From positions 1-28,675 of IMG/VR virus record IMGVR_UViG_3300041955_000703: 28,675 bases of DNA, one strand, 5' to 3'. The DNA is from a virus. Below, one piece after another: positions 24 through 26,111 of the stretch (positions are counted from its first letter, which is position 1; each line of letters begins with the position of its first letter). A program made the position numbers and the translations under genes. The notes under the pieces are model-generated. The model searched no databases and was not told where the DNA came from. It was given only the letters and a program-made list of their open reading frames with translations.

Positions 24-385
24 GCTGACCTCAAAAACCCCCTTTCAAGGTTTCCATGCCACTCGTTTCTGCCGTCCACCACACCTTTGTTTCTCCAAAT
101 GCTTGGTGAAAGAGTTGGAAAGTCCAGATTTCCGTCCCAAGACCAATGTGGGCCTGAGCTATCTGAAAAGGTGGGCCCACGGGTGACAGGAATGGGAGCA
201 ATGGTGCCCCCCTCGTTGCCAGGAATCCTGATGAGCAGGTCTGTGACCACTCCCACCGAATTGGAGAGCCAAAGAAAATCGCCATCCCTCTCCAGTATAT
301 CCTCACAGCCTGGAAACCAATTCTCGGCGGTGGCGCCCGTTGGCGGGGGCTCTCTGCGACGGCAGGCCACTGAGTCCCGATTCAT
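20..385 (-). CDS. small phage protein resembling DUF6527
   Basis: This 121-aa protein starts at an ATG that overlaps the stop of the GH130-like gene (ATGA), so the two are translationally coupled. The C-terminal half has the pattern W-S-W-D-G-N followed by PTLSPSI (about residues 81-95) and then a WHG-x-L segment near the end. From memory this matches small phage proteins of the DUF6527 type, where a W-x-F-N-G-D then PT-x-SPS signature precedes a C-terminal histidine. The paired N-terminal cysteines usual in that family are missing: only one Cys (in FPGCED) follows the first nine residues. Function is unknown; its place at the end of the head operon suggests a minor structural or accessory role. 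Confidence 0.6.
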   Translation of the reverse strand: MNRDSVACRRREPPPTGATAENWFPGCEDILERDGDFLWLSNSVGVVTDLLIRIPGNEGGTIAPIPVTRGPTFSDSSGPHWSWDGNLDFPTLSPSIWRNKGVVDGRNEWHGNLERGFLRSA

Positions 386-1407
386 GCCACCACCATCCTC
401 TCCAGGAGCTCTGAGAACGTGTACCGCATCAGGCAGCAGTAGGAATCATTGACCCCGATGGACACAATGGCCGAGAAATCCCCGCTGCCCCCCTGCTCCA
501 GGATGGCCCCACCTGGAAAGACGCAGCAGGGGTGACCCGCCCCTGGCCTGGGGCTGTGGAGGGTGGGGCTGGCCTCTGTGCCCCACAGCAGGGGCTCCTT
601 GGTGTAATGGGTGATCCGGTAGGGGGCAAAGCCGTCAAAGAGCTGCGCCCCGTACCAGTAGCGTCCCCCCCGCCCAGGGATGCGCACCCACCCGCCCACA
701 AACTCCAGCATGCTCCTCCTGGGCCCACCAATCGCCCCATCAATCCAGTTTATGGCAACAGGGCTGGCCCTGCCTGAGCAGGAGGCCCCTGGAGGGTCAA
801 TCGGCACTGCGGCAGTGGTGTGGCCTGCCCTGGTGGCCACCTCCAGCACCATCCTGGGGTGCTGCGAATAGACCAGGCACAGCTTGCCGTCCAGGTCCTC
901 AAACGGGGTCCAGTTTTTCTCAATGCCCCCGATTTTCCCAAAGCCCAGGGGAATCTCCTCCACCGCTGCCAGGCTGTCAGGATCAATGGCAAAGAGCCTG
1001 GGCTGGCAGACCGGGGGCAGCTGCAGCCTCACCATCAGGGCCAGCAGCCACAGCCTCCCACCCGCAACGCACAGCCTGGGGTCCTCCCAATGGTTGTCTC
1101 CCTTTTCGTTGGGCAGCCTGACGGTGCCGCTGCCCTGGATGGTCAGCTCAGAGTCCAGCAGGGAGAGCCCGATGCTGGAGACCGCCGAGAAACTTTCAAC
1201 CCGGTAGGCAACAAAAATGCGCTGGCCGAGCCTGCAGATGGATGGGTTGTAATGCCTGGCCCCTGGCACCAGCTCCCTGGAGTCCAGCCTGGCCAGGAAA
1301 TTGGGACTCAGCTCAACAGGGGGATGGGGCAGCCTGATTTCATGGATCAGCTGCGGGGTGGGAGGCCAGGGGGCCTGAGAGGGGAGTGGGGCACCTGAAA
1401 GTCTCAC
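382..1407 (-). CDS. GH130-like five-bladed beta-propeller protein
   Basis: This 341-aa protein starts at a GTG overlapping the preceding stop (GTGA). GH130 enzymes are beta-mannoside phosphorylases and hydrolases built on a five-bladed propeller. Propeller-type motifs occur in the family order: YNPSI and YRVES near residues 53-71, WEDPRL near 107-112, EKNWTPF near 163-169, then near the C-terminus a CCVFPGGAI stretch, SIGVND and a final SELLERM. The last three correspond to the FPCGA, YYGAAD and LL motifs that close GH130 domains. I cannot verify the catalytic Asp/Glu or the phosphate-binding residues. It lies between head connector and accessory genes rather than with the glycosyltransferases, so it may act on or bind host glycans from the virion. 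Substrate and activity are inference; the fold is fairly secure. Confidence 0.7.
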   Translation of the reverse strand: MRLSGAPLPSQAPWPPTPQLIHEIRLPHPPVELSPNFLARLDSRELVPGARHYNPSICRLGQRIFVAYRVESFSAVSSIGLSLLDSELTIQGSGTVRLPNEKGDNHWEDPRLCVAGGRLWLLALMVRLQLPPVCQPRLFAIDPDSLAAVEEIPLGFGKIGGIEKNWTPFEDLDGKLCLVYSQHPRMVLEVATRAGHTTAAVPIDPPGASCSGRASPVAINWIDGAIGGPRRSMLEFVGGWVRIPGRGGRYWYGAQLFDGFAPYRITHYTKEPLLWGTEASPTLHSPRPGAGHPCCVFPGGAILEQGGSGDFSAIVSIGVNDSYCCLMRYTFSELLERMVVA

Positions 1408-7999: not shown

Positions 8000-8551
8000 T
8001 CATGCTGTGCCTGTGCCTTGGGTTGGCGTTGGGGTGGGCTGGATGAAGGGATTGGTTGGCGTGGGGCTTGGCGTTGGCGTTGCCGTGGGGCTCGGCGTGG
8101 GAGAGGGTGACGGGGTTGGAGACGGGGATGGGCTCGGTGTGGGGCTCGGCACAGGGGCGGCTGTGGGAGTGGGTGCAGCGGTTGGAGTCGCCGTGGGTGA
8201 CGGGGTTGGCGTTGGCGTGGGTGCGGGTGGACCGTAGGTGGCCAGCATCAGTGCCGCATTGTAATATGCCTCTGCCCTGCCCTGGAAATAATTGCTGGCC
8301 AGGGGAAGCATCTGCCCATCTGTCAGGGAGCTCTCAGCTGCGCCATAGAGCAACCGCACCATCAGGAGCCTGTCACCAATCGCCACCTGATTGACCGGGG
8401 GCAGGGCTGGCAGTGTGAACGGTGGCAGGGTCACACCTGGCATGTTCACAATCCAGGTGGGGGTGGGGCTCGGTGTTGGGGTGGGCTGTCCTGATGCCTC
8501 AGCCACGAGCAGCGCAGAGACCAATGACAGGATGACGGGGTGCAGCTTCAT
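8000..8551 (-). CDS. secreted protein with Pro/Thr/Ser-rich mucin-like tail
   Basis: The 183-aa protein has a Sec-type signal peptide ([21 protein letters not shown]), then a short Pro/Thr stretch (24-32), a folded central part (about 33-107, with [22 protein letters not shown]), and a long tail of PT, PTPSP and APTP repeats (108-182). No Cys follows the signal, so it is not a lipoprotein. Pro-rich secreted proteins close to small membrane proteins in phages are often spanins, a reasonable guess here. The tail also looks like an O-glycosylation substrate, notable because this phage encodes several glycosyltransferases. It is coupled by ATGA to the upstream membrane protein gene. Function is inference. 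Confidence 0.65.
8009..8230 (-). repeat. low-complexity Pro/Thr/Ser coding repeat
   Basis: This stretch encodes the repetitive tail of the secreted protein. On the coding strand CCA, CCC, ACG, ACC and AGC codons alternate with near-repeated units. ACG and other CG-containing units are frequent, unlike most of the genome, which avoids CpG. Such tracts expand and contract by slippage, so length may differ between relatives. Confidence 0.7.
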
Positions 8552-8724: not shown

Positions 8725-8818
8725 ACCGTTTGGCCAGCACAGCTGTGACCCACGCCACCAGCTCACAGGCTGCCGCAAGACCTACTGCTGCCCACTGGAT
8801 TGAGGGTGGAATGGTCAT
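8699..8818 (-). CDS. 39-aa membrane peptide, candidate holin
   Basis: An ATG at 8818 overlaps the large terminase stop in the ATGA arrangement and opens a 39-codon frame that ends at 8699. The peptide (MTIPPSIQWAAVGLAAACE, then [20 protein letters not shown]) has one hydrophobic span of about 20 residues and a basic C-terminus. Coupling to the terminase and overlap with the next small membrane gene make it likely to be real. Holin or other lysis function is inference. Confidence 0.6.
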   Translation of the reverse strand: MTIPPSIQWAAVGLAAACELVAWVTAVLAKRYAPRAHRK

Positions 8819-10206
8819 ATCAGCCCACTGCGATTCTCCCACCCCTGACCAGCCTGAGGCTCATCATACCCAGGGGTGTTGTCTGCTCCAGGGTCCAGGT
8901 CATCCCGCCTCTTGTCCCTGGTGGTGGAGAATTGGAATGGCTGGCCCCTGATGCCGAGATGCTTAGTCGCAAGGGCCAAGGCGCACACGCAGTCATCATG
9001 CATGCCTGGGGGTGCCGAGTAGAAAACCCCGGTGAATCTGCCGTCCCTGCCTCGAAACTCATATTCAAACATTTCCAGCTCTGTCAGCAGCACTGGACCT
9101 GTCAACCCAAGCCTGGTCTGCTGAATCTCGGATTGCAGCAGCTCCATGAGGTCCTGCTTGCTGCGGGTGGTGAACACAAAGCCCTCAAAGTTGCCTGACG
9201 CTGTGCTCAGGTCCTCCACTATGGCGTCCCCGATTCCGGTGGCGTCCACCAGGGCAGCCTTGCCTTTCGTCTCCTGGATGATGCGGCGTTTGGTTTCGCC
9301 CCAGGGTGCCTGGAATCGGACCAGGTTGACCATCCTGCCCTTGCGGTCCAGGGCCACACCAGCGGTCCAGTCCAGGTGCTTGCCCAGGTCCCATCCCCAA
9401 CAGGCCACAGGGTCAACAGAGAAAGTCTCCATTTTGCAGGCTGCGATGGCTGCCAGGCCAAACGGGTTGCCCTCGTCATCAGAGGGCTCGGCCTCATAGA
9501 GCTCCTTGAACACAGCCTCAGGCAGCTGCCTCCTGGCATCCTCCACCTCAGGCTGGTCCATGATCCCCGCAGCCACCGCATCCCTCCAGGTCAGCTTGGC
9601 ATAGCTCATGTCAGGCTCACCCGCCTCTGCCCTCTTGCACATTTTGAAAGCCCAATTTTTTTTGCCCTTAACGTTGCCGATGATCCGCACCAGGCCCTTG
9701 GTGTGGGTGATGACAGACCTGACCGCATGCCATGCCTCCTCCCTGCACCTGGTGGCCTCATCAATGACTGCGGCAAAGACATCCTCACCATACAGGGCAT
9801 CAGGCTTCTCCCCGGTCTTGAACCAAATCACAGCCCCGTTGAAAAGGGTTAGCGTCAGCTCAGTGTCATTGGGTTTCGCAACACCACCCGTGATGGCCAG
9901 TTTCATCCTCCTGTAGGCAATCCTGGCCTGGCCAGCAAACGGGGCCACCCACCAAAACTGCCTGCCTGGCCTGCCGTGGATGATGGCCTGCTCTGCCAGC
10001 CACACAATGCAGCCCCAGGTCTTGCCTGATTTGGTGCTGGCCTCAATGCAGGCATACCTGGCAGGGGAATAAATCGCAGCCTCCTGCTTGGGATACAGGC
10101 TCGGCCTCTGAAAATCCACAGAGAGGTCAGGCTGCCGCAGCGCAGCCTTGGGCTCAGTCCTCGCCGTTGCCGCCGCTTTCCGTTTCGCCGTTGCCGTTGG
10201 GGCCAT
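8815..10206 (-). CDS. terL: terminase large subunit
   Basis: The ATG at 10206 gives 463 aa; a longer frame upstream overlaps the small terminase and was not used. The ATPase has a Walker A-like STKSGKT (57-63) and Walker B AAVIDEATR (145-153), with a GNVKGKKNW motif typical of phage terminases. The nuclease half has GWDLGKHLDW with Asp at 273, ALVDATGIGD with Asp at 321, and HDDCVCALAL with Asp at 404-405, the three acidic positions of the RNase H-like fold. It cleaves and translocates DNA into the prohead through the portal. It overlaps the small terminase by 53 bases and is coupled to a small membrane gene downstream. Confidence 0.9.
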   Translation of the reverse strand: MAPTATAKRKAAATARTEPKAALRQPDLSVDFQRPSLYPKQEAAIYSPARYACIEASTKSGKTWGCIVWLAEQAIIHGRPGRQFWWVAPFAGQARIAYRRMKLAITGGVAKPNDTELTLTLFNGAVIWFKTGEKPDALYGEDVFAAVIDEATRCREEAWHAVRSVITHTKGLVRIIGNVKGKKNWAFKMCKRAEAGEPDMSYAKLTWRDAVAAGIMDQPEVEDARRQLPEAVFKELYEAEPSDDEGNPFGLAAIAACKMETFSVDPVACWGWDLGKHLDWTAGVALDRKGRMVNLVRFQAPWGETKRRIIQETKGKAALVDATGIGDAIVEDLSTASGNFEGFVFTTRSKQDLMELLQSEIQQTRLGLTGPVLLTELEMFEYEFRGRDGRFTGVFYSAPPGMHDDCVCALALATKHLGIRGQPFQFSTTRDKRRDDLDPGADNTPGYDEPQAGQGWENRSGLI

Positions 10207-10885
10207 GAGAGGGGAGCAGATGGACTGCCGCTGCGTCCAGCTGGAATGTCTCAGAGGCAGTCCTGCTCTGATCACTGCGCACGAGGGTGACCCTGATGGT
10301 GCGACGGTCATTGAATTGGATGGGCGGGGTGTCCACCTGGCCAAGGAGCTGCTTGCCGAGCCAAATCTGCATGACGGCATTTCCCTTGAGGGCATTGGCC
10401 AGCTGAGCCCTCCTCAGGCTCATTGTGGCAACGCTGAGGCCCTTTTTGTAAGCGTGCATAAGGGCAGGGCAGGCTTTGAGCCTCCTGTCCACGGTGCTGC
10501 GGTTGACATCGCAGACCTCAGCAATCTCTGCCGTAATGGCCCCGATTCTGCCGAAAGCCTCAAGCTGCCTGGCAGTGGCGAAGTCCTTGCGGGGTCTGCC
10601 GAGAGGGGCATGCTTGGCCCCGTTGCCATTGCCGCTGGTGCCGTTGGCTGCGGGGCCCTCGCTCCCGTTTGGCCCTCCTGTAAACGTGGACGGGTTGAGC
10701 ATGAGGGTGTCAAGGCTGGAGTTGTCCCCAACAGGAGTTATGAGCTCAGCTGATTTCCCTTTCCTGGGTTTCTTGCTCCGCATCTTTCGGCACGCTAGGG
10801 CTGCCAGGCCAGATTCTCCAGCACAAATGTCCCTGGTGGAATTTGGTGCTTGAAAAGGGAAACCCAACGGATTGAGCTGAGGCAT
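10154..10885 (-). CDS. terS: terminase small subunit
   Basis: The protein binds DNA at the packaging start and recruits the large subunit. The start is uncertain: ATG 10885 (MPQLNPLGF, 243 aa) has GAGG nine bases upstream and is used here; ATG 10783 (MRSKKPRKGK, 209 aa) may be used instead. The key region is a helix-turn-helix-like segment FATARQLEAFGRIGAITAEI, AEVCDVNRSTVDRRLKACP, as in small terminases. Next comes LRRAQLANALKGNAVMQIWLGKQLLGQ, the conserved segment of many small terminases that acts on small polypeptide substrates or oligomerisation. The C-terminus has RRTIRVTLVRSDQ. It overlaps the large terminase start and is divergent from the replication operon. Confidence 0.8.
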   Translation of the reverse strand: MPQLNPLGFPFQAPNSTRDICAGESGLAALACRKMRSKKPRKGKSAELITPVGDNSSLDTLMLNPSTFTGGPNGSEGPAANGTSGNGNGAKHAPLGRPRKDFATARQLEAFGRIGAITAEIAEVCDVNRSTVDRRLKACPALMHAYKKGLSVATMSLRRAQLANALKGNAVMQIWLGKQLLGQVDTPPIQFNDRRTIRVTLVRSDQSRTASETFQLDAAAVHLLPSHGPNGNGETESGGNGED

Positions 10886-12309: not shown

Positions 12310-12898
12310 CGCATGGGAGCCCTCCCTGGTGCAGGCCAGGCAGGTCTGCTCCAGGTACGTTGCCGACATGGAGCAGGGCAGGCAGCCCTACTGGTTGACG
12401 CTGACGGGGGCCAATGGCTGCGGCAAGACCAGGCTCCTGCAGCAGCTTTTCAGGGAGGCTCAGAGGCTCAACCCAGGCAACCCCGCCAACAACCGCATTT
12501 GGCCCCCCGATTGGGAGACCAGGCCCAGGGGTGCGGTCAGCGTCTATGAGGACAGCAGGCCCCTGTGCAGATGGTTCACCGAGTCAGGCATGGCAGCCAA
12601 GATGAGGGAGGGCTTTTGGGAGCTGCCGAGACTGCTGCAGGAGGACTGGTGCGTTGCCCTGGATGAGTTGGGGGGCGCCCGAGACCCCACCAACTTTGTG
12701 GCTGACGCAGTGGCCCAGGTCTGTGATTTGAGGCTTGGACGCTGGACGCTGTTTGCCACCAACCTGACCCTGGGCGAAATTTCACAGCAGGTGGATGCCA
12801 GAATCGCCTCCAGGCTGATCCGAGATGACAACCGAGTGCTGACCATCACTGCGGGGGACTATGCCCTCAGGACCAGGCCAAGGGAATTGTGGGCTTGA
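12218..12898 (+). CDS. DnaC-like AAA+ helicase loader
   Basis: The ATG at 12218 (MKPIKDLMTEAL) gives 226 aa and overlaps the replication gene by 92 bases. An ATG at 12239 is also possible, and neither has a clear ribosome site. Walker A is GANGCGKT (64-71), Walker B is WCVALDELGG (around 148-151), sensor 1 is LFATNLT (about 179-184), and the arginine-finger region is ARIASRLIRDDN. These are the marks of DnaC/IstB-type ATPases, which load a replicative helicase at the origin. The partner helicase is not in this window and may be the host's. Confidence 0.8.
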   Translation: MKPIKDLMTEALNSVQTTQESRTTGWVPNLDAWEPSLVQARQVCSRYVADMEQGRQPYWLTLTGANGCGKTRLLQQLFREAQRLNPGNPANNRIWPPDWETRPRGAVSVYEDSRPLCRWFTESGMAAKMREGFWELPRLLQEDWCVALDELGGARDPTNFVADAVAQVCDLRLGRWTLFATNLTLGEISQQVDARIASRLIRDDNRVLTITAGDYALRTRPRELWA

Positions 12899-12915
12899 CA
12901 CTGCATGCAATACAG

Positions 12916-13395
12916 ATGAGCGGTGTAACTATGCGCAGGAAATCTCTGCTGACAATTACCATTGATCCTGATGTGAGGGAGTGGCTGGTCCAAAAGTTTT
13001 GCGACACGAAGCGGGGCGTATCGGGTTACATCAATGACCTGTGCAGGGCCGAGAAGGAGAGTACGGAGAAGGAAAACCCTGTTGCAATTTATGGAATTTT
13101 CTCAAACAGCGGGAAATGCCTCTATATCGGCCAGACCATTCATTTCAAAGAGAGAATTGCTCAGCTCTTGGGTAAACACGCAAAATTCCGTGGGCACTCA
13201 CGGGTGACCGTCAAGGTGCTTGACCGGGCCACATCAATCCAGGAGGCGGGTATCTTGGAACGCAGACACATCAAGAATTTCAAGAAGAGGGGAGAGGCCC
13301 AGGAAAATTTCTTGGGTGGTGCCACTATCAGGAGGCTTTCAAGGCTGGACCTAGATGCCGATTATTGTGCGCAGATGGAGCCTAGCCAACAGTGA
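12916..13395 (+). CDS. ribbon-helix-helix/GIY-YIG nuclease-like protein
   Basis: The start is unclear: ATG 12916 (159 aa) is used, and ATG 12931 (MRRKSLLTITID) fits the fold just as well. Residues 15-46 (SLLTITIDPDVREWLV..VSGYINDL) look like an RHH-type DNA-binding domain. The GIY-YIG domain has YGIF (59-62), YIG (70-72), Arg 80, Glu 115 and Asn 131, the expected catalytic set, though Tyr is Phe in the first motif (GIF for GIY). The gene is AT-richer (about 50% G+C) and has near-normal CpG (16 seen, about 22 expected) whereas neighbours are much depleted. It looks like a mobile endonuclease captured by the phage. No intron is visible next to it. Confidence 0.75.
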   Translation: MSGVTMRRKSLLTITIDPDVREWLVQKFCDTKRGVSGYINDLCRAEKESTEKENPVAIYGIFSNSGKCLYIGQTIHFKERIAQLLGKHAKFRGHSRVTVKVLDRATSIQEAGILERRHIKNFKKRGEAQENFLGGATIRRLSRLDLDADYCAQMEPSQQ

Positions 13396-14196: not shown

Positions 14197-14297
14197 GGGA
14201 TTTCCAAAACAGGCTTTTCCTGGAGCTGATGCTGCTCACCTTCACCTTTGTCCTCTGGACCTGTTACGGTCCCATCCATTTCCCCACCTGCCCATGA
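14193..14297 (+). CDS. 34-aa membrane peptide
   Basis: An ATG in an ATGA overlap opens a 34-codon frame with one hydrophobic span (LFLELMLLTFTFVLWTC). Its stop overlaps the next start as well. It may be an inner-membrane peptide; no function known. Confidence 0.5.
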   Translation: MRDFQNRLFLELMLLTFTFVLWTCYGPIHFPTCP

Positions 14298-14761
14298 ATC
14301 CTGACAGCCAAATGAAAGTTGCCCTGTTTGCCAGCAAGGTCTCCCCCATCTCCAAGCTGATCGAATGGGAGACCCGCAGCAAATACAGTCACGCAGCTGT
14401 GGTGCTGCGCAGTGGCCAGGTGATTGAGGCAGTGGAGGGTGTGGGGGTGCACATGCTGGAGGACCTGCCCAAGGTCACCCTGCCTGACCGCATTGACCTT
14501 TTCATGGTGGCAGACCTGGACCAGGATGCCGCTGAGAAATTCCTGCTCTCCCAACTCGGCAAGCCCTATGACTGGCCTGACCTCCTGGGCTTTGTGACCA
14601 GGACTTTCATGGAGGAGGACCGCGGGGCCTGGTTTTGCTCTGAGCTGGTCTTTGCTGGCATTGAGGCTGGAGGGGTCACCCTCCTCAGGGACATCCCCCC
14701 TTTCCAAGTCAGCCCTGGGACCCTGAGCCTTTCACCGCTGCTGATCCCTTACACACCATGA
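14294..14761 (+). CDS. YiiX/NlpC-P60-like permuted papain peptidase
   Basis: This 155-aa protein resembles the YiiX/YaeF family, a circularly permuted relative of NlpC/P60 peptidases. The catalytic His is in KYSHAAVVL (His 33) and the catalytic Cys in AWFCSELVF (Cys 115), with a conserved GKPYDWPDLLGF segment (89-100) between them. In phages such proteins are usually amidases or endopeptidases, sometimes regulators of host lipids; substrate here is unknown. There is no signal peptide. The gene is coupled to both neighbours and leads directly into the glycosyltransferase genes. Confidence 0.75.
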   Translation: MNPDSQMKVALFASKVSPISKLIEWETRSKYSHAAVVLRSGQVIEAVEGVGVHMLEDLPKVTLPDRIDLFMVADLDQDAAEKFLLSQLGKPYDWPDLLGFVTRTFMEEDRGAWFCSELVFAGIEAGGVTLLRDIPPFQVSPGTLSLSPLLIPYTP

Positions 14762-15753
14762 ATGAGCTCACCATTGCCTGGATGACTGCCAGGAAAGACG
14801 CAAAGTTTGACTGGTTCTGTGACAGCCTCCATGCCGAGTGCGGGGGCAGTTACTTTGGCCTGACCGTGATGGCCATTGACTATTGGGCCAACCCCTACGG
14901 GTGCACCACCAGCCTGCATGAGGACCGCAGGGCATACATCCTGCAGAGCCTCAGGTGCCCAGGGGAGCAATTCAAATGGGCAGCCCCCAAGCCCACACCC
15001 TGGCAGGGTCCCTACAGGCAGGGCAGGAAAGACTGGTTTGCCGCTGCCAATGCTCGCAACACCGCAGTGTGCCTGTGCGAAACCGAGTATATTTGCTTTG
15101 TGGATGACCTCACGGTGCTCAACCCTGGGTGGTTGGCAGAGGCCCTTAATGCGATGCGTTTTGAAAAGACGGTAACCTGTGGCTCATACCGCAAGGTGAG
15201 AAAGCTGGTGGTGGTGAACGGGGAAATCATGTCCTGGGAGCCCCACCTGGTGGACAATGGGAAGGGGGCCCAGGTGGACGCTGGCCTGGACAATCGCCTC
15301 AGCCACATTGACCCCAAGGCAACCGAGCACCGCTGCCAGGGCCAGTGGCTCTATGGCTGCAGCTGCATCATGCCTGTGGAGGCCCTGCTGGAGGTCAACG
15401 GTTGGGATGAGAGGTGCGACGGCATGGGCACAGAGGACTACTGCACTGGCATCAACATGCAGAAAAAGGGGTGGAAATTCCGCTTTGCCCCCAAGATGCT
15501 CACCCTGGAATCAGAGGAGGGCCACCACACTGAGGGCCAGATGGCCAGGGCAGACTACGGCAAGAGCCCCAACGACAAGAGCCATGCCATGCTCAACCTT
15601 TGCCTGCAGGGAAATGGCTGGAGCCCGGTCATGTTTGGCAATAGTGACCTCAGGAAACTCAGGACCAGGGTGCTCGAGCACCAGCCTTTCCCAACCCCGC
15701 CCAGGAATTTTCTGGAATGGTACAATCGAAAGCAAATCGCAGAGCTGGACTGA
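14758..15753 (+). CDS. GT-A glycosyltransferase (GT2 with GT7C-like C-terminal part)
   Basis: The 331-aa protein has a GT-A type nucleotide-sugar site: AAANARNTAV (96-105) followed by YICFVDDLTVLNPGW (111-125), where FVDDL is the metal-binding DxD. The C-terminal half includes GQWLYGCSCIMPVEALLEVNGWDERCDGMGTEDYCTGI (195-231), which matches the galactosyltransferase-type Glyco_transf_7C module that closes the active site (NGWDE, then G-x-ED). It transfers a sugar from a nucleotide-sugar to an unknown acceptor. It is coupled to the peptidase gene and starts the glycan island. The sugar donor cannot be named from sequence. Confidence 0.85.
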   Translation: MNELTIAWMTARKDAKFDWFCDSLHAECGGSYFGLTVMAIDYWANPYGCTTSLHEDRRAYILQSLRCPGEQFKWAAPKPTPWQGPYRQGRKDWFAAANARNTAVCLCETEYICFVDDLTVLNPGWLAEALNAMRFEKTVTCGSYRKVRKLVVVNGEIMSWEPHLVDNGKGAQVDAGLDNRLSHIDPKATEHRCQGQWLYGCSCIMPVEALLEVNGWDERCDGMGTEDYCTGINMQKKGWKFRFAPKMLTLESEEGHHTEGQMARADYGKSPNDKSHAMLNLCLQGNGWSPVMFGNSDLRKLRTRVLEHQPFPTPPRNFLEWYNRKQIAELD

Positions 15754-15755
15754 GC

Positions 15756-15851
15756 ATGGCGCATTACCTCCTCCACCTCCTGGGCATTTTTGCCTGCACC
15801 ACAGTGCTGGCCTTTCTCATGGTCACCCTCATCCTCAGGCTCACACGATGA
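15756..15851 (+). CDS. 31-aa membrane peptide
   Basis: The ATG lies two bases after the glycosyltransferase stop and opens a 31-codon frame (MAHYLLHLLGIFACTTVLAF) with one long hydrophobic span. Its stop overlaps the next start (ATGA). It is one of several tiny membrane peptides scattered through the operon; no function known. Confidence 0.5.
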   Translation: MAHYLLHLLGIFACTTVLAFLMVTLILRLTR

Positions 15852-16057
15852 AAACTCACATTGGCTATTGCTACCAGCCCAAGGGAGAAATTGGGCATGA
15901 CGGTTTCAGGCCCCGCATGGCAGTGCTGTGCGACGAGCAGGGCAACCTGACTGACCCAACGCAGAGGGCCCGATTCACCTCAGGTGGATGGGTGCTGATG
16001 GGGCACCATGAGCCTGGGAAAGCCCCGGTCACCGTTTGGGATCAGGCCAAGCAGTAA
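15848..16057 (+). CDS. unknown 69-aa protein
   Basis: The ATG overlaps the previous stop and gives 69 aa (MKTHIGYCYQPKGEIGHDGF and so on, ending WDQAKQ). It is small, soluble and mixed, without a recognised family. Its 3' end overlaps the next gene by 22 bases. Confidence 0.55.
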   Translation: MKTHIGYCYQPKGEIGHDGFRPRMAVLCDEQGNLTDPTQRARFTSGGWVLMGHHEPGKAPVTVWDQAKQ

Positions 16058-16572
16058 ACCTCAAGAATTACACCACTGAGGTCCCAACCAGCACCACCAT
16101 CTTTCGGGTGCAGCAGTTTCTCATGAAGGCAGGTGTGTCTCAGCTAGCAATGGACTATGGGCTGGACGGCAGTGTGTCTGCCATCACCTTTTCCCTGCAG
16201 CTGGAGGCCAAAAAAAGGCCAGTGATGGTGAGGCTGCCAGCCAATGTGGACGGGGCCCTGGAGGCCCTGTGGAGGCAGAGGTGCGAAGGGGGCAGGCTCA
16301 ATTCCGACAGGGACATTTGCACTTACAAAAACGGCAAATGGCTCAAGAAAGAAAGCCTCAGGGAGCATGCCTCAAGGGTTGCTTGGAGGCTGGTCCAGGA
16401 CTGGATTGAGGTGCAGCTTTCAATGGTGGCCATGAAGCAGGCAGATTTCCTCCAGGTCTTTCTGCCCTATGCCTGGGACGGCAGGCAGACCTTTTACGAC
16501 AGGCTCAAGGGTGGGGGATTCAAGCTGCTGGAGGCACCCAAGCAGGAGGGAGAGGTGGTGGAGGCCCGATGA
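16036..16572 (+). CDS. conserved phage protein (NYTTxVP type)
   Basis: The protein starts LKNYTTEVPTSTTIFRVQQFL and continues DGSVSAITFSLQLEAKKRPVMVRLPANVDGALEAL, a pattern I recall from a common phage family of unknown function that has NYTT-x-VP at the extreme N-terminus. No ATG or GTG lies upstream of this motif; the only near start is TTG at 16036, inside the previous gene, giving 178 aa. The C-terminal part is helical (RVAWRLVQDWIEVQLSMV), and a characteristic WR-x-QDW patch is present. It may be an early DNA metabolism or host-takeover protein. It is coupled to the GT11-like gene. Confidence 0.65.
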   Translation: MGSGQAVNLKNYTTEVPTSTTIFRVQQFLMKAGVSQLAMDYGLDGSVSAITFSLQLEAKKRPVMVRLPANVDGALEALWRQRCEGGRLNSDRDICTYKNGKWLKKESLREHASRVAWRLVQDWIEVQLSMVAMKQADFLQVFLPYAWDGRQTFYDRLKGGGFKLLEAPKQEGEVVEAR

Positions 16573-17348
16573 GCAGCCCCAAGGTCATTGTCCTGTCCCT
16601 CATCGGGACGAAGTTGGGCAACGCCACCATGTCCTATTTGCATGCCAGGGCCCATGCGGAAAGGGTGGGTGCGGAGCTCCAGTGTGACCCCTGGATTGGG
16701 GAGGAGATTTGGGACCTGACCATCCACAGGGTGACCCACCGGGGTCTGGACCACAGGGACGAGAACACCCTGCTGCCCCATGAAACCAACGTCATGCTGC
16801 GGACCTACGCACAGAGCCAACGGGCCATGATTTACACTGCGCTGCAGGCCAGGGAGTGGCTGCGTTTCAGGAGGCCCATTGAGGAGGTGCTTGCTGATCC
16901 AGAGGCCATGCGGCGTTTTGATTCTGACCACATTGTGGCCCACCTGAGGCGGGGGGATTTCGCCCCGTTGGGTTACCCCCTGGTGGGTGTGAAATCCTAC
17001 CATGACGCTGTGGTCCAGTTTGGCCTGGCAAATAGGGCCAAGTGGGGAGGGTTTGACCAGGCTTTCAATTTTGTGAGTGAGGAGCACCCCACGCCCTGGG
17101 GCAAGCTGCCGTCCAGGCTGTCCATGCTCCCCGATTTTTACCGCATGGTTTATGCCCCGGTGCTGCTCAGGGCCAACTCAAGTTTCTCCTGGGTTGCGGG
17201 GCTCCTGAATCATAGGGTTTTCAGCCCGGTCATCAATGAGGCTTTCGGGGGCAAGGAGAATGACTGCAAATTTGTGGAGGGAAACTGGCCCAGGCTCTCC
17301 ATGCTGCCGATGTGCTCAGACCTGCATTTGCCCAATGAAACCGTTTGA
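16569..17348 (+). CDS. GT11-like fucosyltransferase-type glycosyltransferase
   Basis: This 259-aa protein has HIVAHLRRGDFAP (121-133), the H-x-RRGD motif of alpha-1,2-fucosyltransferases and related GT-B enzymes, which binds the nucleotide-sugar. A second block SMLPDFYRMVYAPVLLRANSSFSWVAGLL (185-213) matches the family's C-terminal donor-side motif with conserved N-S-S-F-S. It lacks part of the usual N-terminal domain but is within the range of short bacterial members. It would add fucose or a related sugar to an oligosaccharide. It is coupled to the gene before it and overlaps the FkbM gene downstream. Confidence 0.75.
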   Translation: MSSPKVIVLSLIGTKLGNATMSYLHARAHAERVGAELQCDPWIGEEIWDLTIHRVTHRGLDHRDENTLLPHETNVMLRTYAQSQRAMIYTALQAREWLRFRRPIEEVLADPEAMRRFDSDHIVAHLRRGDFAPLGYPLVGVKSYHDAVVQFGLANRAKWGGFDQAFNFVSEEHPTPWGKLPSRLSMLPDFYRMVYAPVLLRANSSFSWVAGLLNHRVFSPVINEAFGGKENDCKFVEGNWPRLSMLPMCSDLHLPNETV

Positions 17349-17922
17349 GGTGCCTGACCTGCTTGACCACAACCTCACCCCTGACAGTTGGGTGCTGGAG
17401 GCTGGTGCTTTCAAAGGGAATTTCACAGCAGACGCCAGGACCAAGTGGCACTGCCATGTGCTCTGCTTTGAGCCCATTTCAGGGTTTTTTCAGGCCCTCA
17501 GAAAAAGGTTTGGCACTGACCCCAAGGTGCTGATGGTCCACGCAGCCCTGGGCCCTGTGATGCAGCAGGGAGTGAAATTCAGGGTCAAGGGAAGCATGTC
17601 ATCTCCCTGGGCAGATGACGGCAAGTGGGAGCCTTGCGTCATGGTCACCCTGGATTGGGCCATCGCAGCCCTTCCGGTGGTGGAGCTGGCCAACATTAAC
17701 ATTGAGGGCGGGGAGTATGACCTGCTGGAGGACATGCTGAGAAAGAGCCTGGCCAAGAGATTCAAATTCATCCAGGTGCAGTTTCACAACCTGCCTCAAG
17801 CTGCCCATCTGGCCCGATGGGAGGCCATTCGTTGGGGCCTTGAGAAAACCCATCAGCTGGCCTTTGGCTGCCCACCCACAGAATTTCTGCCCAACACTTG
17901 GGAGGGATGGAGGCTCAGATGA
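17335..17922 (+). CDS. FkbM-family methyltransferase
   Basis: The ATG at 17335 (MKPFEVPDLLDHNL) overlaps the GT11-like gene by 14 bases and gives 195 aa. It is a class I SAM-dependent methyltransferase: WVLEAGAFKGNFT (19-31) is the SAM-binding glycine motif, CFEP (44-47) the acidic residue binding ribose, and NINIEGGEYDLL (120-131) the FkbM signature. FkbM-type enzymes methylate sugar hydroxyls. In this cluster it probably caps or modifies a glycan made by the neighbouring glycosyltransferases. Confidence 0.85.
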   Translation: MKPFEVPDLLDHNLTPDSWVLEAGAFKGNFTADARTKWHCHVLCFEPISGFFQALRKRFGTDPKVLMVHAALGPVMQQGVKFRVKGSMSSPWADDGKWEPCVMVTLDWAIAALPVVELANINIEGGEYDLLEDMLRKSLAKRFKFIQVQFHNLPQAAHLARWEAIRWGLEKTHQLAFGCPPTEFLPNTWEGWRLR

Positions 17923-18503
17923 AATTCACCTCATACAGCCAAGCAGGCCAGGATCAATGGGTGTTTGACACCCTGGTGGTGGGTGCCGCCCAGATGACTG
18001 GCACTTTCCTGGACATTGGCTGCGCTGATCCGGTCACCTGGAACAACACCTATGCCCTGGAGCTGGTGGGCTGGAGGGGCCTGCTGGCCGACAATGACAG
18101 CCATGCCTGCCAGCTCTGCCGAGCCAAGCGGCAGTCCTTGGTGATCCAGCAGGATGTCACCAAAATGGACTGGAGCAGGGTGCTGCCCCCGTATAATTTC
18201 GATTACCTGTCCCTGGATGTGGACTCGGCCACCCAGGCTGCCCTGGAGTGCCTGCTGCGGGACGGGGTGACCTGGAGGATGGCCACCATTGAGCATGACT
18301 CTTACAGGTTCGGCCCAGGCCCCAGGTCTGCCATGAGAAAGATGCTCTATGGGGCAGGCTATGTCTGTTTCAAGGAGGATGTCTGCGCCACCCCAGGCAT
18401 GCCATTTGAGGACTGGTGGGTGAACACAGAGCTGGCAGCCCTCCTGGAGCTGGAGGCGAATTTCAGCGAATTGGAAAGGCAGTCAGTCCCCGCTTATGCC
18501 TAG
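17919..18503 (+). CDS. FkbM-like methyltransferase
   Basis: The ATG at 17919 overlaps the previous stop and gives 194 aa. Residues 5-17 (SYSQAGQDQWVFD), 28-38 (GTFLDIGCADP) and 42-60 (NNTYALELVGWRGLLADND) form the FkbM-like pattern SQ-x-GQD...D-x-G...N-x-x-x-LE. Residues 95-103 (DYLSLDVDS) match the second half. It is not a recent duplicate of the previous gene, since they differ over most of their length, so the two may act at different positions. The stop is TAG and the next gene starts inside it (8-base overlap). Confidence 0.8.
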   Translation: MKFTSYSQAGQDQWVFDTLVVGAAQMTGTFLDIGCADPVTWNNTYALELVGWRGLLADNDSHACQLCRAKRQSLVIQQDVTKMDWSRVLPPYNFDYLSLDVDSATQAALECLLRDGVTWRMATIEHDSYRFGPGPRSAMRKMLYGAGYVCFKEDVCATPGMPFEDWWVNTELAALLELEANFSELERQSVPAYA

Positions 18504-19233
18504 CAAATTTGAGCTCTACTGGCCTGCCATTTTTGTGGTCAATCTGGCCCGGCGCAGGGACCGTTGGGAGCATTTCAATGGTGAAATGAAAAAGATTGGC
18601 GTGGACAGGGTTTTCAGGCTGGAGGGCTTTGAGGTGGTGGGCAGGGACGGCAAGGTGGATGGCAACACAGGATGCACTGCCTCTCACAGGAGCCTCCTGG
18701 ACGCCATCTGCTTTCACCAAATCAAACGGGCCCTCATCTTTGAGGATGACGCAATGATTGTGCCTGAGAATTTCCATGAGGTGTGGGAGGCCATTGAGCC
18801 CCGCATCCCCGAAAAATGGGATGTGCTGTATTTGGGGGGCCATTACGCAGAGGACCCCATTGCCAGGGTCAACCCCAACATCATCAGGTGCGGCAGGATG
18901 AAAACCACCTCCTCCTATGGGATCACCCTGCAGATGGCCCGAAAGATGGCTCCTGAAATTTTTGGTGTCGGTCCTGTGGATGAGCTCTTTGGGGGCTTTG
19001 CCGATGACCGGGCCAATCATTTTTACTGCCTGCAGCCCCGCCTCTTTGCCCAATATCCCAACGTTTCCGACATCCAAGGCAGGCACATGGACAATTCAAT
19101 GTGCATGCTGGACCGCAGGCATGAGAGCCTGATGCCCAGGGATTACGTTGGCCTGCTCAAGGACTATGTGCGCCCCCCTCCTGTGCTTAGGGCTGGCAAA
19201 CTTCGCAACCCTGACCAGGACAAGCCCCGATGA
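18496..19233 (+). CDS. GT25-family glycosyltransferase
   Basis: The 245-aa protein has the GT25 pattern: IFVVNLARRRDRWEHF (12-27), GCTASHRSLLDAI (59-71) and RALIFEDDAMIV (78-89), where EDD is the DxD-like metal site. GT25 members include LPS galactosyltransferases and collagen galactosyltransferases. Its C-terminal part (NPNIIRCGRMKTTSSYGIT; SSYGITLQMARKM) matches the family's acceptor side. It follows the two FkbM genes and overlaps the second by 8 bases. The acceptor could be virion protein or lipid-linked glycan. Confidence 0.85.
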   Translation: MPSKFELYWPAIFVVNLARRRDRWEHFNGEMKKIGVDRVFRLEGFEVVGRDGKVDGNTGCTASHRSLLDAICFHQIKRALIFEDDAMIVPENFHEVWEAIEPRIPEKWDVLYLGGHYAEDPIARVNPNIIRCGRMKTTSSYGITLQMARKMAPEIFGVGPVDELFGGFADDRANHFYCLQPRLFAQYPNVSDIQGRHMDNSMCMLDRRHESLMPRDYVGLLKDYVRPPPVLRAGKLRNPDQDKPR

Positions 19234-19487
19234 AAAAGCACCAGGAATCCAAGAAAAGGCCAACGGTTGGACGGGGCTTTGGCGGGGCCAACAAGCCCCT
19301 TTTCCACGAGCCTCCCCCGCCCAAGGAGACCATTGTGCACAGGGCAGTCCCCGCCCCCGCACCCCCCCCGCCACCCAGGAAAGTTGAGCCCCCGCATCCC
19401 CTGGCAGGGCTGCCAATTCAGATTGCCCCCAAGAGGCCAGGCAAGTTGACTAGGCTGCTGTCATTCTTTCGCAACAAGGCACCATGA
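19230..19487 (+). CDS. Pro-rich basic protein
   Basis: The ATG overlaps the GT25 stop. The 85-aa protein is basic and Pro-rich (HEPPPPKET; AVPAPAPPPPPRK) and ends in a small hydrophobic/basic segment (LTRLLSFFRNK) that might associate with membranes. No family is recognised. It may be a linker or substrate-type protein; with no conserved enzyme motif a catalytic role is unlikely. Confidence 0.55.
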   Translation: MKKHQESKKRPTVGRGFGGANKPLFHEPPPPKETIVHRAVPAPAPPPPPRKVEPPHPLAGLPIQIAPKRPGKLTRLLSFFRNKAP

Positions 19488-19642
19488 AACAGCTCCGCAT
19501 CCAGCTCCTCAAGGACATCCTGGCACTGACCAACAAGCCTGGAAACCTGAGGGCTTTTCTCATCGGCCTGCTTTTCCCTGAGTTTGCGCACATTTGCGCC
19601 AAGCTGGCCGAGCTGTCTGGAGACATTGAAAACAACCCCTAA
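19484..19642 (+). CDS. unknown 52-aa protein
   Basis: An ATG in an ATGA overlap opens a 52-codon frame (MKQLRIQLLKDILALTNKPG and on), ending in TAA at 19640-19642. It is helical with one moderately hydrophobic stretch (AFLIGLLFPEFAHI). No family recognised. Confidence 0.5.
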   Translation: MKQLRIQLLKDILALTNKPGNLRAFLIGLLFPEFAHICAKLAELSGDIENNP

Positions 19643-19645
19643 GCC

Positions 19646-19864
19646 ATGCACCTCATGATAAACACCCCGATGGACCTGGCCATGTTTCTGCTCGGCATTT
19701 TCCTCTGCCTCCTGCTGGCAGTGGTGCTGCTCTTTTTCGTTGCTGCGCTGATTGCCTGCATTTGGGGGATGATCAAATTTGGGCCAGCCTATGCCAAGAA
19801 ACTCAAGACTGAGGCCCAGGCCAGGGCCTCCAGCCCAAAGACTGAGGGCCTGAGGGTCCTATGA
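19646..19864 (+). CDS. membrane protein with one or two spans
   Basis: The 72-aa protein has a long hydrophobic region (LAMFLLGIFLCLLLAVVLLF then FVAALIACIWGMI), enough for one or two transmembrane helices, and a basic C-terminal tail. Starting at ATG 19646, it ends in an overlap with the methyltransferase start (ATGA). It could anchor the glycan enzymes or be a small transport or lysis component; this is not decidable here. Confidence 0.6.
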   Translation: MHLMINTPMDLAMFLLGIFLCLLLAVVLLFFVAALIACIWGMIKFGPAYAKKLKTEAQARASSPKTEGLRVL

Positions 19865-20493
19865 CCCCGCAGACCAAGGCTGCCATCACAGCCCTTTGCG
19901 ACAAGACCAACCCCAGGCACGCTGAGGGCTGGTGCTGGTGGGAAAAGGCAACGGCAATGGCCGAGCTCATTGAGAGGGTGGAGCCTGACCTGGTTGTGGA
20001 GGTGGGGATTTTCGGGGGGAGCTCCATGCTGCCCCAGGCCCTCCAGTTGAGGGACAATGGGCATGGCATCATCATCGGCCTGGACCCCTGGACCAAGGCT
20101 GCCGCCACTGAGGGGCAGCTGCCCCCCGAGCATGTGAAATGGTGGAGTGAGGTCAACCTGGAGAGGGTCATGCAGAGATTCATGGCGCAGCTTGTGGCCC
20201 TGGACCTGGTGGAGGTGGCTGTGCCCATCAGGGCCAGCTCCCAAACGGTGGTGCACCTGTTTCAGGCAGGCTCCATTGACATCCTGCACATTGACGGCAC
20301 CCACAGTGAGCTGGCCTCCATGAGGGATGTCCTGGGTTACTTCCCCAAGGTCAGGCATGGGGGCTTCATTTGGCTGGATGACATTCACTGGCCCACCAAC
20401 AAAAAGGCAGTGGAGTGGCTGGATGGCCACTGTGAGATTGGGAACACCCTCGTCAGCCCCTTTGGGCAGGCCAGGCTTTACAGGAAACCCTGA
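19861..20493 (+). CDS. TylF-like O-methyltransferase
   Basis: This 210-aa class I methyltransferase has DLVVEVGIFGGSS (43-55) as SAM loop, IIGLDPW (71-77) as acidic strand, and IDILHIDGTHSE (139-150) and FIWLDDIHWP (169-178), the metal-binding D-x-x and DD-x-H motifs of macrocin O-methyltransferase (TylF) and cephalosporin hydroxylase-like sugar methylases. Such enzymes methylate sugar hydroxyls using Mg. It is coupled to the membrane protein gene and ends the plus operon. Confidence 0.8.
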   Translation: MTPQTKAAITALCDKTNPRHAEGWCWWEKATAMAELIERVEPDLVVEVGIFGGSSMLPQALQLRDNGHGIIIGLDPWTKAAATEGQLPPEHVKWWSEVNLERVMQRFMAQLVALDLVEVAVPIRASSQTVVHLFQAGSIDILHIDGTHSELASMRDVLGYFPKVRHGGFIWLDDIHWPTNKKAVEWLDGHCEIGNTLVSPFGQARLYRKP

Positions 20494-25418: not shown

Positions 25419-25734
25419 ATTCTCAACCACACTCAGGCTCCAAGACTCCAAGCAGGAGCTCACTGGCAAGACCATCAGGCAGACCTATATTTCAGGCACC
25501 ACCGCTGACTGCAAAGAGAGGACCAGGGTGACAAGGGATGTGGAGGGGGTCATTGAGCTGACCATTGATGAGCAGGCCATCATGAGGAGGTTGGGTGGGC
25601 TGGCCCTCCTCAGCAAATGCGGCAGGGCCCAAGCAATGAGGGGGCTCGTCAAGGCCAAGAGGATCAGCAGCAAAGAGCTGTCCAAGACCGTGGAGCCCCC
25701 TAGGGCCCTCACAGGCTCAGAGGTGTATCTGTGA
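25414..25734 (+). CDS. unknown 106-aa early-type protein
   Basis: The ATG at 25414 follows the repeated AACTCCAACCAAA leader. The protein is basic with a beta-rich first half (MKFSTTLRLQDSKQELTG; RDVEGVIELTID) and a helical basic second half (AQAMRGLVKAKRISSKELS). No family is recognised. Its stop overlaps the next GTG start (GTGA). It heads the right-hand plus operon. Confidence 0.6.
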   Translation: MKFSTTLRLQDSKQELTGKTIRQTYISGTTADCKERTRVTRDVEGVIELTIDEQAIMRRLGGLALLSKCGRAQAMRGLVKAKRISSKELSKTVEPPRALTGSEVYL

Positions 25735-26111
25735 AAGCACTCTCCATCCTTGCCCGGTCCCTGGGCCTCACTCTCCTCCTTGTGTCCTCAGCCTGCTCCG
25801 CTGAGGTTGGGGCCTTTCAGACTGTGCTCCGCATCTCTGGCACTGATGAGGCCAAGGAATCCAAGGAATTCACCGTTGGCCCCCACTGGAGGGTGGTCTG
25901 CACCAGCAGCAAGGCAGGGGATGATTTCGGCATCCAAATCTTTGTGATCCCAACGGCAGGGCTCTCCAACGCTGAGGTCATAGACGTAAGGGAGGAGGGG
26001 CTGCGGGTGGTCTATTTCAGAAACCCAGGCACCTACAGGGTCAAGGTCATCGGATTTTCCGCAAGCTGGTCTGTCACCGTTGAGGACCAGCCCACAGAGA
26101 AGCAAAAGTAA
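25731..26111 (+). CDS. secreted small protein with signal peptide
   Basis: GTG 25731 overlaps the previous stop. The 126-aa protein starts with a signal sequence (MKALSILARSLGLTLLLVSS, then ACSAEV). Cleavage after Ala-Cys-Ser-Ala is likely; the Cys could instead make it a lipoprotein, though the lipobox is poor (no Leu at -3). The mature part is beta-rich (FTVGPHWRVVCTSSKAGDD; YRVKVIGFSASWSVTV), like a small beta-sandwich. No family recognised. Exported early-block proteins in phages may serve superinfection exclusion; that is only one option. Confidence 0.65.
   Translation: MKALSILARSLGLTLLLVSSACSAEVGAFQTVLRISGTDEAKESKEFTVGPHWRVVCTSSKAGDDFGIQIFVIPTAGLSNAEVIDVREEGLRVVYFRNPGTYRVKVIGFSASWSVTVEDQPTEKQK

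Follow-up and report, generated by a model that had tools for sequence, protein, structure and literature searches.

Why a phage should carry a whole packed operon for the transfer and methylation of sugars, and which molecule would receive the product, is the question raised by the plus-strand genes at 14294-20493 of the virus record IMGVR_UViG_3300041955_000703, which was analysed over its full 28,675 bases (in the following, the window). This island comprises thirteen closely packed open reading frames (ORFs), including three glycosyltransferases (GTs), of the GT2, GT11-like and GT25 types, and three methyltransferases, two of FkbM type (FkbM-1 and FkbM-2) and one of the Methyltransf_24 family (MT24); an earlier note, made from the letters alone, had these genes and their coordinates right. 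Together with a propeller enzyme encoded 13 kb away, at 382-1407 on the minus strand, the island is best explained, with a probability of about two in three, as a glycan-assembly cassette that would build an O-methylated glycan, the acceptor of which would most likely be a head or tail protein.

Recurrence of the cassette in viral contigs

To gather loci, IMG/VR was scanned with alignments of three island proteins, FkbM-2, GT25 and GT2. Relatives of GT2 were found in 42 viral contigs; the counts refer to 36 non-redundant loci, and genes were scored as co-occurring when they lay within 6 kb of GT2 and on the same strand. MT24 accompanies GT2 in 35 of the 36 loci and the propeller does so in 29, figures that bear out the expectation of the earlier note that related phages would keep the cluster together; GT11 is found near GT2 in nine loci, FkbM-2 in seven, GT25 in six and FkbM-1 in three. 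By comparison, among 127 viral loci selected through FkbM or GT25 and devoid of GT2, MT24 is present in four and the propeller in none (Fisher p = 6e-30 for the MT24 counts). Furthermore, the sequence distances of GT2, MT24 and the propeller correlate across phages (r 0.31-0.52), to a degree matched by 0 of 5000 permutations. As judged from these sequence comparisons, GT2, MT24 and the propeller form a recurring core, GT11, FkbM and GT25 being variable accessories, and the view that the island is a phage cassette recurring beyond chance is well supported. Scans with a single GT2 or a single portal protein as query gave no matches; the alignment of the Mu-like phage portal was too divergent for use as a scan query, and that of the propeller too divergent to scan the whole collection.

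The order of the genes varies around a partly constant arrangement. In the window it is GT2-GT11-FkbM1-FkbM2-GT25-MT24, with small ORFs interspersed; in locus L271 it is MT24-GT11-FkbM1-FkbM2-GT25-GT2, the inner block from GT11 to GT25 having the same gene order as in the window, and in L234 it is propeller-GT2-GT11-FkbM1-GT25-MT24. Members of the core are also found fused, as MT24-GT2 (L100) and propeller-MT24 (L247), and the propeller is fused to a GT9-like domain in L267 and, weakly, in L259.

The GT2 family appears to be nearly confined to viruses, where, given that pattern scans can miss relatives, 'virus-only' is to be read as 'not found' in cells. A five-sequence GT2 alignment gave no match in 84,980 cellular species genomes, and a 33-sequence alignment gave a single locus in the same set, namely L271, a 6.4-kb phage-like contig of an Opitutaceae metagenome-assembled genome, which carries all six island enzymes and the neighbouring genes of which are related to the viral contig L233. 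When 388 Verrucomicrobiota genomes were searched with a GT2 profile, L271 was the one full-length match, besides four marginal GT2 matches near 38 bits; there is, at this point, a hint of Verrucomicrobiota as host. A GroES-like gene, named by eye, lies immediately behind GT2 in this contig (L271 6070-6384).

Enzymes of the cassette

The genes of the cassette in the window are the following.

382-1407, minus strand: GH130/GT108-like five-bladed propeller enzyme, core member, penultimate gene of the head operon (predicted from model, profile and co-occurrence)
14294-14761, plus strand: ORF resembling C92 permuted papain-type proteins, at the operon head (PF05708 0.0017, below cut-off)
14758-15753, plus strand: GT2-type glycosyltransferase with a GT7C-like end, core member (Pfam Glyco_tranf_2_3 2.6e-6 and Glycos_transf_2 3.5e-5, both above cut-off)
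15756-15851, plus strand: membrane-like peptide of 31 aa (ORF with a hydrophobic stretch)
15848-16057, plus strand: ORF of 69 aa (ORF list)
16036-16572, plus strand: ORF of 178 aa, its TTG start uncertain (relative in the FkbM locus L119)
16569-17348, plus strand: GT11-like glycosyltransferase with HLRRGD and NSSFSW motifs (supported via phage relatives)
17335-17922, plus strand: FkbM-type methyltransferase 1 (PF05050 2.6e-5, 24.9 bits against a cut-off of 22.7)
17919-18503, plus strand: FkbM-type methyltransferase 2 (relatives annotated FkbM)
18496-19233, plus strand: GT25 glycosyltransferase (PF01755 8e-11, 42.6 bits against a cut-off of 24)
19230-19487, plus strand: proline-rich ORF of 85 aa (ORF list, composition)
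19484-19642, plus strand: ORF of 52 aa (ORF list)
19646-19864, plus strand: membrane peptide of 72 aa (hydropathy 3.39 across 19 residues)
19861-20493, plus strand: Methyltransf_24 O-methyltransferase, core member (PF13578 7e-15)

Most junctions in the island are ATGA or other short overlaps, as had been claimed for all of them, but gaps of 2-3 nt are present at 15753/15756 and 19642/19646. Profile searches, which the earlier note had named as the check on its assignments, identify the six enzymes as GTs and methyltransferases, with some changes in detail. The GT2 and GT25 assignments are confirmed directly by Pfam, whereas the supposed GT7C likeness of the former reaches 0.059 only. A direct Pfam search with the GT11-like protein gave no match; a profile built from its phage relatives matches PF01531-positive proteins (7e-26 and 1e-19), and the motifs HxRRGD and NSSFSW are mostly retained, the former as HLRRGD in the window. 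A single-sequence structure model of this protein was useless (pLDDT 34). Of the two enzymes taken for FkbM-like, FkbM-1 is recognized by PF05050, and FkbM-2, which gave no match in a direct Pfam search, is placed through a profile of its relatives that matches a cyanophage protein annotated as FkbM (4e-49). The TylF identity suggested for the third methyltransferase did not hold, with PF05711 at 0.012 and 15.3 bits against a cut-off of 23, Methyltransf_24 being the match instead. The 178-aa ORF has its relative at 5615-6043 of L119, an FkbM-bearing viral locus (38%, 5e-33 in tblastn). Finally, not all of the stretch described as a glycan island deserves the name, in that the ORF at 14294-14761 probably lies outside the glycan gene set: its PHROG 1128 label, 'enoyl-CoA hydratase-like', looks wrong, and Pfam and NCBIfam point weakly to the YiiX/YaeF permuted papain fold. 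Genes for nucleotide-sugar synthesis were not recognized in the cassette.

The propeller gene had been missed by the earlier reader. Its own sequence gave no match in Pfam (including PF04041), PHROGs, NCBIfam or PDB, and the GH130 link is therefore drawn through its relatives, which exceed the PF04041 cut-off and include an L238 protein at 40% to that of the window. A model obtained with AlphaFold from a 24-sequence alignment is all-beta (pLDDT 85, pTM 0.86) and has its best Foldseek matches among GH130/GT108 structures (E 2e-9 to 8e-7, TM about 0.45-0.67), and the family profile matches GH130 proteins of the PDB with an E of 7e-19. The model has further matches among Leishmania structures; one of these is MPT-4, which we take to be a GT108 enzyme. 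In the Glu-Asp-Pro-Arg motif, E108 and D109 are invariant in 24 of 24 sequences, the Asp presumably being the catalytic residue. On the combined strength of model and sequence, the protein is regarded as a further enzyme of the glycan set, predicted to be a phosphorylase or a mannosyltransferase. In other phages a GT9-like domain precedes the propeller or is fused to it (L098 5580-6932, L267 4856-6724); the window copy is without it.

Genomic setting and acceptor of the glycan

In the pathway that we envisage, the GT2, MT24 and propeller core, extended here by the GT11-like and GT25 enzymes and the two FkbM proteins, would use nucleotide sugars supplied by the host to assemble a short oligosaccharide in its cytoplasm. 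The cassette methyltransferases would O-methylate it, the glycan would be attached to a head or tail protein, and the virion, released with its methylated glycan, would be altered in adsorption, stability or recognition. The sugars probably include fucose, from GT11, and mannose, from GH130/GT108, as far as family membership tells; the order of the steps, the acceptor and the benefit are what we infer.

The case for a virion acceptor, and hence for one of the three destinations (virion, phage protein or host surface) between which the earlier note had left its methylated oligosaccharide, is made by the genes that surround the cassette in its relatives. Virion genes are neighbours of cassette genes in L238, L278, L231 and L234, an arrangement that is treated as supporting rather than as defining. 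The order is TerL (terminase large subunit)-portal-MT24-GT2-GT25-protease-putative capsid-gB-propeller in L238 and TerL-portal-GT25-protease-putative capsid-gB-propeller in L278. In L238 and L278/L279 the putative capsid and protease genes of the window are also present, and the order runs from the putative capsid gene through the same small gene to the propeller. In L234 the cassette lies immediately behind TerL, in L178/L231 GT25 leads into the tape-measure operon, and in L235, L239, L241 and L253 TerL is followed by a 754-aa protein, the cassette and a 437-aa protein. Searches of the latter two proteins against PHROG and PDB profiles gave no identification; from gene order they may be portal and capsid, respectively. 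A virion acceptor is favoured because relatives' genes thus lie within head and tail operons and because, in the window and the 36 records of relatives, which are partly incomplete, neither flippases (GtrA, PF04138, and Wzx) nor a thymidylate-synthase-type hydroxymethylase (PF00303) were found.

These two negative results bear on the rival explanations. Modification of the host surface, by which lipopolysaccharide (LPS), capsule or another host glycan would be changed during infection or lysogeny to give superinfection exclusion or receptor masking, would agree with the small membrane peptides within the operon and with GT25, GT11, FkbM and GT9-like enzymes being, as general knowledge has it, typical of LPS and capsule pathways. 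It is nevertheless rather unlikely, considering that GtrA and Wzx were not found in the 36 records, that only 4 of these have an integrase above cut-off, and that the relatives' genes are placed among head and tail genes; Gtr-type serotype conversion in particular was rejected on the PF04138 and integrase results from these partly incomplete records. Hypermodification of DNA, with the GTs placing sugars on phage bases against restriction, is the least probable of the readings considered. Virus-encoded GTs that glycosylate DNA do exist, according to the passage of PMC12619734 that cites the study concerned, and one PHROG match of the MT24 protein is labelled DNA methyltransferase, but this label conflicts with Pfam, and FkbM, GT11, GT25 and GH130 are, again as general knowledge, not among the DNA-modification families; T4-type DNA glucosylation was rejected on the PF00303 result from the window and the 36 partly incomplete records.

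The glycan might instead be meant for a secreted or membrane protein of the phage that is not part of the virion. The candidate at hand is a 183-aa ORF between terminase and portal (8000-8551, minus strand), the product of which starts like a signal peptide and contains long repeats of Pro-Thr/Pro-Ser (23% Pro, 16% Thr). Pro/Thr-rich stretches are often O-glycosylated, and the ORF is conceivable as an O-glycan acceptor, but it cannot be the shared one, because no relative of it was found in 45 cassette loci, and a role of this kind for the cassette as a whole is decidedly improbable.

Several observations weigh against a virion acceptor. The six-enzyme operon of the window is convergent with the tail operon and lies outside any virion operon; in four more distant relatives of the putative capsid gene (L280-L283), neither the propeller nor the GTs turned up in the stretch examined; and many IMG/VR records are fragments, which makes absent genes weak negatives. 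The step from a position among structural genes to the acceptor is an indirect one that we infer, a phage protein outside the virion might be the acceptor instead, and the glycan itself is a predicted one. Addition to a head or tail protein is still the preferred reading. A more specific version is put forward tentatively, at slightly under even odds: the cassette may encode a dedicated route to protein glycosylation, all but limited to viruses and at home in uncultured phages, perhaps those of Verrucomicrobiota, in which a viral GT2, its partner methyltransferase and a GH130-fold sugar transferase would make a methylated glycan that coats the capsid, the module being exchanged between phages with unrelated head genes.

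Other genes of the window include a Mu-type portal (PF06074, 2e-58), a Mu-like protease, terminase, a tape-measure-like gene and RecT; a tRNA search of the window found none. The terminase large subunit (8815-10395, minus strand) has >570 relatives in IMG/VR, the best 80 of which have hardly any second gene in common with the window. The surroundings of the gene are, in this comparison, strongly mosaic, and TerL is a poor lineage marker because its relatives have almost no further window gene in common. A GIY-YIG endonuclease ORF lies upstream of the island (12889-13395, plus strand). The small protein at 25731-26111 (plus strand), with a hydrophobic N-terminus, has a 48% relative at L178 5917-6192, within a run of glycan genes and beside FkbM-1, and may belong to the cassette.

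Comparison with known systems

Phages that add sugars to their own virions are, to our knowledge, few. Should this modular cassette, which recurs in dozens of environmental phages and pairs a nearly virus-confined GT family with a GH130-fold enzyme of capsid operons, prove to act on virions, glycosylation of the particle would seem to be a common strategy of phages that are uncultured. The cassette also offers enzymes that can be tested as well as a marker gene for finding further examples. Virion glycosylation as such is already known; the GT2-MT24-GH130 combination is likely to be new in phages, no paper on it having been found in the open-access literature.

The mix of three GT families with three methyltransferases in about 5 kb had been thought unusual for a phage, but islands of GTs and methyltransferases are as such not rare in phages: cyanophages and huge phages have larger islands, in larger genomes. 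Synechococcus phages DSL-LC02 and S-H68 and the uncultured LR756504 and LR756508 carry adjacent GT11, GT25 or FkbM genes at 22-33% identity to those of the window, DSL-LC02 with GDP-fucose synthesis genes as well, whereas a relative of the window GT2 or propeller was not found in the phage records. The special feature is the recurring, nearly virus-only core. In mycobacteriophages (Che8 and others), phage GT genes are linked with capsid and tail-tube protein glycans that shield against anti-phage responses (Freeman 2023, in the passages of PMC11256854 and PMC12619734 that cite it); the window GT2 and propeller, for their part, gave no match when 50,697 phage records were searched by tblastn.

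The propeller shares its predicted fold and the conserved Glu-Asp motif with mannoside phosphorylases of family GH130 and with enzymes of family GT108 (2b4w, 6q50, 4udg, 9gph), at about 13-16% identity, but some phage propellers differ from them in carrying a fused GT9-like or MT24 domain. In chlorovirus PBCV-1, A064R (GT-GT-methyltransferase) builds the end of the capsid glycan and A061L is also part of the machinery (PMC7826918, PMC9614988). PBCV-1 is a virus of green algae with an N-linked glycan, and the likeness is a functional one; like the cassette, however, it combines virus-encoded GTs with O-methyltransferases and a GT-methyltransferase fusion, and its capsid glycan ends in an O-methylated sugar.

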